Part shown: in pieces, positions 18,238-23,645 of the stretch
Layout: the number at the start of each line of letters is the position of its first letter
Numbering within the stretch: position 1 is the stretch's first letter
Origin: Nitrospirota bacterium
GTDB taxonomy: Bacteria > Nitrospirota > 9FT-COMBO-42-15 > HDB-SIOI813
NCBI GenBank assembly: GCA_016212215.1
Contig: JACRGV010000011.1
Coordinates: 1-34,604 of the forward strand
Reading direction: 5' to 3'
Length of the DNA stretch: 34,604 bases
Notes under the pieces: generated by a model
The model's database searches: none
Seen by the model: only the letters and a program-made list of their open reading frames with translations
Told to the model about the DNA's origin: nothing
Translations under genes and position numbers: made by a program

Positions 18238-18740
18238 TTTCTTTCCTTCATCTTTAGAATGAAGTCTATTACCTCACGTACTGCCCCCTCCCCTCCCCTT
18301 CTCTCCGTTACCATATCTGTTATCTCTTTTACTCCATCAATGGCATCAGATGCCGTAGCAGAAAGACCAATAATCTTAAGGAGAGGAATATCAATCAGGT
18401 CATCACCCATAAAGGCAAATTCCTCATCTGTTAAGTTAAACCTTGATTTAATCTCATTGTACACGCCGACCTTGTCATGAATCCCCAGATGTACCTCTTC
18501 AATCTTCAGTTCTTTTGCCCTGTACTCAACTGATTTGGAGTATCTGCCTGATATTATTCCAACATCAATACCCGCCTTTCTCAACAGATAAATCCCATGG
18601 CCGTCATGTATATGAAATGCCTTTAACTCATTCCCATTACTATCAATAAATATCCTGCCGTCGGTAAGTATACCGTCAACATCAAGGAGGAGGAATTTTA
18701 TGTTTTGGACCTTATGTTTAAGTATCTCTAAATCTTTCAT
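18234..18740 (-). CDS. kdsC: Kdo-8-phosphate phosphatase
   Basis: The HAD-type phosphatase that turns Kdo-8-phosphate into Kdo. The 168-residue cap-less C0 type is normal for KdsC. Motif I is LLLDVDGILTDGRIFID, followed by FHIHDGHGIYLLRKAGIDVG, motif II IISGRYSKSV, the conserved Lys region GIHDKVGVYNEI, and motif IV EFAFMGDDLIDIPLLKIIGL. The C-terminal tail is REVIDFILKMKERN. GAGGA lies 7 nt before ATG 18740. That site and the start codon lie in the repeat boundary motif: on the minus strand, GATTTTCAGATGAA matches GATTTTCGGATGAA with one change. The gene overlaps pgsA by 4 bp and is separated from kdsD by about 180 bp of repeats. Confidence 0.95.
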   Translation of the reverse strand: MKDLEILKHKVQNIKFLLLDVDGILTDGRIFIDSNGNELKAFHIHDGHGIYLLRKAGIDVGIISGRYSKSVEYRAKELKIEEVHLGIHDKVGVYNEIKSRFNLTDEEFAFMGDDLIDIPLLKIIGLSATASDAIDGVKEITDMVTERRGGEGAVREVIDFILKMKERN

Positions 18741-18895
18741 CTGAAAATCCTCAAAGATAACCCCATCCCCACCCTAACCCTCCCCTTGAAGGGGAGGGAA
18801 TAAAAACTAATCCCCCTCTCCCTCAGGGAGAGGGAATAATCTATGGACCCTCTCCCCTGGCGGGAGAGGGTCCGGGAGAGGGTGGGGTTTTTCTA
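18736..18895. repeat. Boundary motif + module A with extra hairpin
   Basis: TTCATCTGAAAATC (18736-18749, containing the kdsC start), then CCCCATCCCCACCC from 18761, the CTCCCCTTGAAGGGGAG and CTCTCCCTCAGGGAGAG hairpins, an additional CTCTCCCCTGGCGGGAGAG hairpin near 18849-18867, and GGGTGGGGTTTTT at the end. It fills the gap between kdsD and kdsC. Confidence 0.93.
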
Positions 18896-18918
18896 ATTAC
18901 GTACTCAGCACTCCGAAT

Positions 18919-19890
18919 TTAAACGATTCCCTTCCTCAGCAAATCATGCAGATGGATCACGCCTTCAACTGTCCTGTCCTCACTCAGAATTACAAGGGAG
19001 GTTATTGAATATTTTTCCATAAGTTGTACAGCAGATACTGCAAGGGAATCTTTTGCAATGGTCTTGGGATTCTTTGTCATCACCTCTTTTGCAGTAAGCT
19101 TGAACAGGTCTTTTTCATTTCCTGTCCACCTCTCAAGCAGTCTTCGCAAATCTCCATCAGTTATAATCCCTGCAAACTTATTAACATTGTCCACTACAGT
19201 AGTCATTCCAAGTTTCCGTGATGTCATCTCGCAGATTACATCCTTCATAAAACTGTCTTCATGAATAGTCGGGACATCAGGATTCTTGTGCATAATGTTC
19301 TCAACTTTCAACAGAAGCCTTCTTCCAAGTGCACCACCCGGATGAAATAGTGCAAAATCGTCCTCTTTAAACCCCCTCTTCTCAAGCAGGGCTATTGCAA
19401 GTGCATCACCCATAGCAAGTGTAACAGTTGTACTTGCAGTAGGGACAAGGTTCATCGGACATGCCTCTTCCTTAACACTTACGTCAAGTGTTACGTCACT
19501 GTTTCTTGATAGTGTTGAGTTGTTCCTGCCGGTCAAACATATCAGCCTCAGATTCATACGTTTGAATGTTGGAAGGAGTGCAACAATCTCATCCGTTTCA
19601 CCACTGTTAGAAATAGCAAGTACTACATCATCCCGCATAACCATTCCAATATCTCCATGAATACCCTCTGCCGGATGGAGAAAAAAGGATGGTGTGCCTG
19701 TACTTGCAAACGTAGCACTTATCTTCTTACCGATGAGGCCGGACTTACCCATACCGGTAACAACCACCCTGCCATCACACGCGAAAAGCGTATCAACCGC
19801 CTTTGAAAACTCCTTATCAAGCCTGCCAATCAAATCCTCAATCGCCCTCGCCTCAATCGCCAGAACCCGTTTACCAATCTCTATACTCAT
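18919..19890 (-). CDS. kdsD: D-arabinose-5-phosphate isomerase
   Basis: It interconverts ribulose-5-phosphate and arabinose-5-phosphate, the first step of Kdo synthesis. At 323 residues it matches KdsD/GutQ. The SIS domain (1-~190) has VVTGMGKSGLIGKKISATFA, the catalytic-site FFLHPAEGIHGDIGMV, AISNSGETDEIVALLP and a DFALFHPGGALGRRLLLKVE linker. Two CBS domains follow (from MHKNPDVPTIHEDSFMKDVI, and from VMTKNPKTIAKDSLAVSAVQ). ATG 19890 lies 1 bp after the kdsA stop, with AGAGGA about 11 nt upstream inside kdsA. The gene is therefore translationally linked to kdsA, its pathway successor. Confidence 0.96.
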   Translation of the reverse strand: MSIEIGKRVLAIEARAIEDLIGRLDKEFSKAVDTLFACDGRVVVTGMGKSGLIGKKISATFASTGTPSFFLHPAEGIHGDIGMVMRDDVVLAISNSGETDEIVALLPTFKRMNLRLICLTGRNNSTLSRNSDVTLDVSVKEEACPMNLVPTASTTVTLAMGDALAIALLEKRGFKEDDFALFHPGGALGRRLLLKVENIMHKNPDVPTIHEDSFMKDVICEMTSRKLGMTTVVDNVNKFAGIITDGDLRRLLERWTGNEKDLFKLTAKEVMTKNPKTIAKDSLAVSAVQLMEKYSITSLVILSEDRTVEGVIHLHDLLRKGIV

Positions 19891-19891
19891 A

Positions 19892-22691: not shown

Positions 22692-22705
22692 GTTTATTTA
22701 CCCTT

Positions 22706-22830
22706 TCATCACCCGAAAATCGTCATAGCCCACCCTCCCCCTACCCCCCTCCCGTCATTTAAATTTGGGGAGGGGGAATATTCTATGTACCCTCTCCCCT
22801 AAGGGGAGAGGGGAGGGTGAGGGGTTGTTT
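22706..22830. repeat. Module A variant overlapping the 3' end of kdsB
   Basis: Boundary-like TTTCATCACCCGAAAATCGTCATAGCCCACC, a CCCCCT...GGGGG part with CTCCC...GGGAG arms, then CCCTCTCCCCTAAGGGGAGAGGG and GGGTGAGGGGTTGTTTC. Its last 30 bp encode the final residues and stop codon of kdsB. Confidence 0.88.
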
Positions 22831-23587
22831 CAATCTGTTTTAGATCTTCCTGTGTATCTATCCTGTAGGAATTATAATGAGTCTCTTTAACTTTAATTTT
22901 AAATCCATGTTCTAATGCCCTTAACTGCTCCAATTTCTCGAGGTCTTCAAGTATTGTTGTTGGAAGGGTGCAGAATTGCATGAGAAAGTCCCTTCTGTAG
23001 GCATAAATACCGAGGTGTTTATAAAAGGTTTTGGCAGGTACAGGGTTTTCATTATAATCTGATTTGGCATCTGATTTATAATCTGATTTGTCTCGGATGA
23101 ATGGGATAGGAGACCTTGAGAAATATAGTGCAAAATCATTGACATCAGTTACAACCTTAACAACGTTCTTATCATTCAATTCTTCAGGATCTTTAATCTC
23201 TATTTTTAGAGTTCCCATCATGATACCGTTATCTTCAACAAGCGTATTAATGAGTTCATCAACCATTTCAGGCCCTGTTAATATTTCATCAGCCTGGAGA
23301 TTGATAATTATGTCCTCATCTGATTTTTCTACTGCCTCTGCACAGCGGTCTGAACCGGTACGAGGTTTCGATGATGTCATAATTACATTGCCGCCGAATC
23401 CGGTTACTGCATTATATATATTTATGTCATCTGTGGCTACAATTACTTTGGTTACAATCGCTGATTTTTTTACAGCCTCATACGTCCATTGAATAAGAGG
23501 CTTTGAGTGCAACAGAGCAAGCGGCTTTCCGGGAAATCTTGTAGAACCGTAGCGGGCTGGTATTATAACGATAGCATTGTTATTCAA
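22799..23587 (-). CDS. kdsB: 3-deoxy-manno-octulosonate cytidylyltransferase
   Basis: It makes CMP-Kdo from CTP and Kdo. About 262 residues: AIVIIPARYGSTRFPGKPLA (nucleotide-binding signature), IVATDDINIYNAV, SKPRTGSDRCAEAVEK, INLQADEILTGPEMVDELIN, a YFSRSPIPF segment, HLGIYAYRRDFLMQF and RIDTQEDLKQIE. I prefer TTG 23587 to the longest GTG (23614): GGAGAT lies 6 nt before the TTG, the family sequence starts just after it, and the longer start lies in G-rich repeat. That TTG and its ribosome binding site are part of the repeat boundary motif (GATTTTAGATTGAA). The C-terminal TPHPPLSP and the TAG stop come from another repeat, so both ends of the gene have been rewritten. Confidence 0.93.
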   Translation of the reverse strand: MNNNAIVIIPARYGSTRFPGKPLALLHSKPLIQWTYEAVKKSAIVTKVIVATDDINIYNAVTGFGGNVIMTSSKPRTGSDRCAEAVEKSDEDIIINLQADEILTGPEMVDELINTLVEDNGIMMGTLKIEIKDPEELNDKNVVKVVTDVNDFALYFSRSPIPFIRDKSDYKSDAKSDYNENPVPAKTFYKHLGIYAYRRDFLMQFCTLPTTILEDLEKLEQLRALEHGFKIKVKETHYNSYRIDTQEDLKQIETTPHPPLSP

Positions 23588-23645
23588 TCTAAAATCTCCA
23601 TGGCTCACCCCCACCCTACCCCTCCCCCCTCAAGGGGGAGGGGAT
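23583..23645. repeat. Boundary motif + half module A at kdsB start
   Basis: TTCAATCTAAAATC (23583-23596), CTCCATGGCTCACCCCCACCC, then the CTCCCCCCTCAAGGGGGAGG hairpin. The same CTCCAT(A/G)GCTCACCCC junction occurs at 20861-20877. The second half of module A is missing. Confidence 0.88.

Follow-up and report, generated by a model that had tools for sequence, protein, structure and literature searches.

Why should three genes of one biosynthetic pathway begin, at the same base of the same motif, at the end of a repeated element? The question is raised by a 34,604-nucleotide stretch from an uncultured Nitrospirota bacterium (assembly GCA_016212215.1, contig JACRGV010000011.1, positions 1 to 34,604; hereafter the window), which is contig 11 of a 2.99-Mb genome in 164 contigs (G000) and whose minus strand carries genes in the order lepA - ... 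- hldE (domain I) - kdsB - pyrG - kdsA - kdsD - kdsC - pgsA. The original prediction held that kdsA, kdsB and kdsC, which are lipopolysaccharide-core genes of the 3-deoxy-D-manno-octulosonate (KDO) pathway, start within a motif that closes a repeat, and that either the element targets translation starts or its end serves as a portable ribosome binding site (RBS) and start codon, which could set a common translation level. We consider it likely that the end of this palindromic repeat is such a portable RBS and start codon, restoring the gene start that the repeat would otherwise interrupt, and judge this the best explanation of the whole.

The repeat end overlaps gene starts where it carries a Shine-Dalgarno-like stretch

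The coordinates of the three minus-strand genes bear out the shared boundary. The ATG (18740-18738) of kdsC (KDO-8-phosphate phosphatase, 18234..18740; NCBIfam TIGR01670, E=2.5e-50) lies in the motif GATTTTCAGATGAA at 18736..18749, preceded by TTTGAGG with its Shine-Dalgarno (SD)-like GAGG; that of kdsA (KDO-8-phosphate synthase, 19892..20728; TIGR01362, E=1.3e-114), at 20728-20726, lies in GATTTTAGGATGAA at 20724..20737, with an SD-like GGAAGAG upstream; and the TTG start (23584-23582) of kdsB (CMP-KDO synthetase, 22799..23584; TIGR00466, E=2.9e-64) lies in GATTTTAGATTGAA at 23583..23596, with GGAG upstream, where the start in a sister species reads ATGAATAAC. In all three the start codon occupies the identical position in the motif, 8 nt past the purine run (GGAAGAG, GGAG or GAGG).

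Copies of the motif are numerous. With at most one mismatch, GATTTTCNGATGAA occurs 472 times in the 3.0-Mb G000 genome, against 2 for the reversed pattern; within the window, with at most two mismatches, 16 matches compare with 2.3 expected, a number reached by 0 of 100 shuffles. Members of the same family (G001-G009), among them the sister species (G001) and representatives of a second (G002) and a third genus (G004), hold 23-177 copies each and most other Nitrospirota few, and the left-hand signature of the element, GCTCACAAAGGN(2-3)ATGAAAA, is present in 22 of 296 Nitrospirota genomes (reversed control, 0). The G000 assembly appears to break at repeats, many motif copies lying <200 nt from contig ends (e.g. 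C3, C20, C26, C31 and C34). Literature searches of open-licence papers returned no paper describing this repeat.

We compared the motif with gene starts in two samples, one of 272 kb chosen around the motif (ORFs of at least 100 codons) and one of 499 kb picked at random without regard to it (406 called genes). In the random sample, 21 of the 406 genes (5%) begin at the motif. In the motif-centred sample, the motif ATG is the start of 27 ORFs whose upstream frame is short, compared to 4 in the GAA frame, the only valid control because the +1 frame always meets a TGA inside the motif. When ten motif-start genes were compared with NCBIfam, the profile began at residues 2-11 in LpxD, FabZ, HisB, GlmU, IlvD, BioD, NadB and RlmL. 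Pooled over the two samples, 67 typed repeat ends have a same-strand gene no more than 60 nt ahead, and 38 of them are the start of that gene. Under a chance model in which a codon drawn at random from the 0-60 nt before a gene has a 19.6% chance of being in frame and open, ends with an SD-like stretch are the start far more often than expected (31/41, expected 8.0, p = 1.6e-14), while ends without one stay at chance level (7/26, expected 5.1, p = 0.24; Fisher p = 1.3e-4 between the two classes); an earlier comparison that did not require a nearby gene was not significant (20/43 versus 3/14, p = 0.12). Behind SD-less ends the gene usually retains its own start 10-43 nt downstream, and ends whose palindrome terminates in GGGGTT likewise occur with genes that retain their own start. 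The predicted excess over chance is therefore large, confined to ends that carry an SD-like stretch, and as expected of a portable RBS and start codon.

Were the repeats to land anywhere between genes, with overlap at starts being only what dense operons allow, SD-less ends would behave as they do, and surviving insertions would necessarily lie near starts because the operons are tight (in a repeat-free relative described below, genes are almost contiguous). Such passive retention is already contradicted by the SD-bearing ends and also by the empty sites of the sister species, which have NTGAA exactly at the junction, and we regard it as very improbable. An artefact of assembly or binning in a repeat-rich metagenome-assembled genome might be suspected from the many motif copies at contig ends, but the same structure and start overlap recur in genomes from other genera that were assembled independently: gene starts account for 21 of 32 terminal ends in G002 (GAA frame, 3) and for 16 of 28 in G004 (GAA frame, 0), where 7 of the 12 non-starts run into head-like sequence. 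As the units also differ among themselves and have genes on both sides, this explanation is scarcely credible.

Genes with repeat starts are functionally mixed, with his, ilv, bio, nad, fab, hyd and lpx genes represented alike, and within the operon itself kdsD, a lipopolysaccharide gene, starts without a repeat and pyrG uses a start sequence of its own at 22691, not the motif upstream. The reading that ties the element to one pathway thus falls, a kds-specific role being rejected on account of this mixture, and a common translation level is not supported. The same mixture bears on a broader possibility, that the motif is a conserved 5' leader signal (a translational regulator site or enhancer) selected before a regulon and not the end of a mobile repeat. 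Its exact distance to the start, together with the SD, would suit such a signal, some G002 genes have the motif with no repeat in front, and short start-abutting repeats with a proposed regulatory role exist, as in the TAACTGA repeats of Beggiatoaceae (PMC4679880). Yet the majority of copies lie away from starts, either between units within arrays or facing no gene, the sister orthologues lack the motif and SD-less ends coincide with starts at chance level, so that we think a regulon leader quite unlikely.

Structure of the repeat unit

The unit is a short (~100-200 bp), non-coding, palindromic, dispersed repeat, of which the start motif is the right-hand end. Fetched copies share a plan that runs from C[CT]NN through a small hairpin (CATGAGC-loop-GCTCACAAAGG), three free bases, ATGAAAAT and a long palindrome to ATTTTC[AG]G and ATGAA; with its preceding bases, the small hairpin reads CYNN-CATGAGC-loop-GCTCACAAAGGNNN. 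In the arrays that units often form, the CYNN of each further unit comes after the ATGAA of the one before it. The small hairpin is supported by covariation, with 94.7% of cells paired and 27 double changes versus 10.3 in shuffles, and all slid versions performed far worse. The long palindromes are of many unrelated kinds (C-rich 'CCCTCTCCCTGAGGGAGAGGG', 'GGGACAAGAAAGTCCC', 'GTCATTCCCG...', 'CCGCAGAGGCACTGAG...' and 'GTGCAACGACT...'), all 6 of the 6 tested fold far better than shuffles (z -5.5 to -8.8), and their feet, GAAAATC and GATTTTC, are able to pair. No Rfam family matched above its gathering score in the window or the loci, where matches were sub-threshold and of the kind expected by chance.

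On the minus strand of the kds operon, the kdsD-kdsC junction holds a C-rich palindromic repeat that lacks the small-hairpin head and ends at the kdsC start (18741..18893). Before kdsA lies an array of three units: a degenerate first one (20998..21047) ending in ACTTTTCGGATGAA, a second (20847..20997) with the small hairpin CATGAGCGGGGCGCTCA, a C-rich palindrome and the end GTGAGCTATGGAGATTTTAGG-ATGAA, and a complete unit (20729..20846) whose small hairpin CATGAACC-GAG-GGTTC (20842-20820) is followed by a long palindrome closed by GAAAATC...GATTTTA (fold z = -7.0). The hldE-kdsB repeat (23585..23645) has its end, GTGAGCCATGGAGATTTTAGA, at the kdsB start, and the kdsB-pyrG repeat (22708..22820) closes with GATTTTCGGGTGAT (motif at 22721-22708), which is not a start. 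An alternative in-frame GTG for kdsB lies within the repeat, at 23614; genome-wide, ends of the GTGAGCTATGGAGATTTTCGGATGAA type (B-type) have an in-frame GTG ~8 codons before the ATG, a possible second start.

Elsewhere in the window, another complete unit (34410..34546, minus strand), 96% identical to the kdsA unit, has its GATTTTCGGATGAA end away from gene starts, and a further unit on the plus strand (10389..10546) carries GATTTTCGGTTGAA on the left side and GATTTTCGGATGAA on the right. Two copies lie inside genes. One (7461-7604) is in frame within GDP-L-fucose synthase (Fcl; ORF 7081-8241, minus strand), adding ~50 residues (...WGWGLFS) at which the NCBIfam match is split, and the other (14404-14540) is in frame within a 429-residue protein (ORF 14008-15297, minus strand), between an MshE-like domain that binds cyclic di-GMP and a likely membrane segment.

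Unit-free sites in the sister species and RTGAA away from gene starts

The closest named kdsA (73%) is that of Nitrospirae bacterium RIFCSPLOW2_12_42_9, whose locus (L031) has the same gene order with almost no intergenic DNA, junctions of 0-20 nt and no repeat, including at the kdsD-kdsC junction. The same kds operon is present in the sister species G001 but lacks these units, and neither G001 nor the repeat-free relatives have GATTTTC upstream; shared upstream bases in repeat-free orthologues would have refuted the original prediction. At kdsB, the sister reads ATGAATAACAAA and G000 TTGAATAACAAT after GATTTTAGA; at kdsC, ATGAAAGAG corresponds to GATTTTCAG-ATGAAAGAT; and at kdsA, TTATGAATGGAAGTT corresponds to GATTTTAGG-ATGAATATGCAGGTA. 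Using a joined-protein search, we located the sister orthologues of his, bio, lpx, fab, glm and nad genes as well. The starts of kdsB, kdsC, hisB (ATGAAAAAC), hisD (ATGAAGATA) and bioD (ATGAATGGT) are ATGAA in the sister, lpxD starts with TTGAA (TTGAAAGAT), fabZ with ATGAC and glmU without a clear ATGAA, and the nadB start, ATGAAAACT, is preceded by the sister's own unit, the palindrome of which differs (L225). With nadB excluded, 6 of 9 sister starts are NTGAA, compared to ~0.2 of starts in general (p = 0.002-0.004). Because these start codons are already NTGAA in the unit-free sister, the repeat sits at a pre-existing NTGAA. In each of the two species a palindromic repeat lies at the start codon of kdsC (G001 locus L213, 8980-9200) and at that of nadB, with a sequence that differs between the species, which suggests recurrent, independent insertion there.

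The ATGAA is found at ends that face no start as well. With an anchor that did not demand it, RTGAA still closed 29 of the 34 right ends lying away from gene starts; ATGAA therefore belongs to the repeat end or to a site rule, not to genes. The left flanks in unique DNA read RTGAA, ATAAA or TTGAA in 24 of 31 genuine cases by our count, and where the left flank is ATAAA or TTGAA the right end still reads ATGAA. This asymmetry would match insertion 3' of a target by an element that ends in the same sequence. In single-unit cases an old gene start can remain recognisable in the left flank; a unit on contig 36 that precedes a 396-codon gene, for instance, has ACAGGGAACCTTATGAA before it. Since units are also found at non-start GATGAA sites, the alternative offered at the outset, that the element targets starts, holds in part: NTGAA does stand at the sister's junctions, but the target looks like (G)ATGAA, which often occurs where genes start, rather than the start codon itself.

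These flanks also bear on whether the repeat is an ordinary miniature inverted-repeat transposable element (MITE), moved by a DDE transposase with duplication of an ATGAA target, in which case the start would be a duplicated gene start and its RBS fortuitous. An ATGAA-like sequence does flank most units on both sides, and GAAAATC/GATTTTC is a subterminal inverted repeat. Against this, units with ATAAA or TTGAA on the left still have ATGAA on the right, RTGAA closes ends whose left sides differ, and the ends are not mutual inverted repeats because the small hairpin is at the left only; we hold this origin to be unlikely.

Proposed mechanism and comparison with known systems

We propose that the unit inserts directly 3' of a (G)ATGAA-like host target and that its own terminal GATGAA rebuilds the target on the far side. 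After insertion at the ATGAA of a gene start, the old RBS-ATGAA would be left behind on the left, and the repeat end, [purine-rich stretch]-ATTTTCRG-ATGAA, would re-create the start codon and first bases in frame. A purine-rich finish of the palindrome (GGAAGG, GGAG or GGGG) would add the SD site, with ATTTTCRG as an 8-nt spacer, so purine-finished ends would restore translation at once and GGGGTT-finished ends would not, and translation of a gene at an SD-bearing end would depend on GGAAGGGATTTTCGG. As the end would rebuild both start and SD, start codons would be tolerated landing sites. We infer that the unit, in the manner of single-strand elements of the IS200/IS605 type, inserts 3' of GATGAA and leaves the target unduplicated, and enrichment at starts would reflect purifying selection more than active start-seeking. 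A more complete picture, in which GATGAA is the target and cleavage sequence, the terminal SD completes a built-in start-codon repair kit, starts are the preferred safe harbour, ~5% of gene 5' ends have been rewritten, the enzyme is of the single-strand or another kind and variable palindromes are swapped between constant ends, is possible, and we advance it tentatively.

Several observations weigh against a portable start of this kind. Gene starts were taken from a crude caller (longest ORFs), and initiation by ribosomes at the motif codons is itself deduced from sequence. In kdsA, a second in-frame ATG two codons downstream (ATGAATATGCAG) aligns with the start of the sister species, so the older start may be that ATG and the motif ATG may add only Met-Asn. 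At fabZ and glmU, where the sister has no ATGAA start, the repeat may have created a new one. Several G002 genes (L186, L188, L194, L200 and L210) start at GGGATTTTCAG-ATGAA right after the preceding stop, without a unit; these solo ends, for which the proposed mechanism does not directly account, may be what is left of lost units, or else leaders that arose by convergence. In the window, the canonical small hairpin is missing from several left ends. The left-target evidence comprises ~31 cases, some of which are mutated repeat ends, and a 5-bp ATGAA target duplication might, though less probably, have occurred instead. Finally, neither a Y1 transposase (PF01797) nor a TnpA-REP gene was found in G000, and the Y1 genes of its relatives have no matching repeat ends in their loci. 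The feature is nonetheless real and not ordinary: the reading as a portable RBS and start codon stands and its mechanism is partly resolved.

As a rule, a mobile repeat avoids genes, breaks them or flanks them; the end of this one would restore the RBS and start codon that it interrupts. Such an end lets a repeat enter the most constrained spot of an operon, which would explain how hundreds of repeats are accommodated in tight operons. If the start is portable, many genes should also have long, structured leaders, and whether swapped ends tune translation becomes testable. Junctions that are alike except for the presence or absence of an SD in the repeat end amount to a natural, many-fold repeated experiment on SD strength.

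Among known systems, the repeat would work most like a single-strand element that inserts 3' of its target. The IS200/IS605 family inserts 3' of a fixed short target without duplication (PMC7290912). Palindrome-associated transposable elements (PATEs) and other non-autonomous IS200/IS605 elements are likewise short, consist of ends only and have subterminal hairpins, a trait found here in the covarying left hairpin and in the long palindrome near the right end, and the asymmetry of left target and right end would fit them. The present repeat differs from PATEs in its freely varying interior palindrome, in the RBS and start codon at its end and in the lack of a Y1 gene in the genome with most copies. 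Repetitive extragenic palindromic (REP) sequences and their composites, BIMEs and REPINs, which are associated with TnpA-REP (RAYT), are similarly high in copy number, hairpin-bearing, intergenic and often arrayed, but REPs are defined by a GTAG or GGAG tetranucleotide 5' of a conserved hairpin (PMC8266576), whereas here CYNN precedes the small hairpin. We tried and rejected membership of IS200/IS605, given the lack of a Y1 gene in G000 and of matching ends at those of relatives, and of REP/RAYT, given the tetranucleotide and the lack of TnpA-REP in G000. The terminal inverted repeats of a MITE are absent as well, GAAAATC/GATTTTC being 7 bp long and subterminal and the outer ends being a CYNN-hairpin on one side and RG-ATGAA on the other. 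With no Y1 gene in G000, no ends at the Y1 genes of relatives and no Rfam family, we do not file the repeat as a member of IS200/605, REP or MITE. HEARO (RF02033) gave 0 matches in 13 genomes and likewise 0 in control genomes.

Three further systems invite comparison. In the part of its published description drawn on here, the pneumococcal BOX element is a modular mosaic with constant ends and a variable, expandable middle, which resembles the present unit in architecture, the level at which the two were compared, and boxC can supply the start codon of ORFs that extend past the element (PMC3049150). That part of the description reports no replacement of host-gene starts at an exact target, and the sequences and hosts are unrelated. 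The TAACTGA repeat of Beggiatoaceae is a short repeat that abuts the starts of functionally mixed genes genome-wide (PMC4679880). It consists of tandem heptamers, mostly without an SD and upstream of the start, in contrast to a structured, dispersed element that contains both SD and start. The palindromic elements of Rickettsia keep an open frame and are for that reason tolerated within genes. The present repeat also has in-frame copies within ORFs, but its main niche is the start codon.

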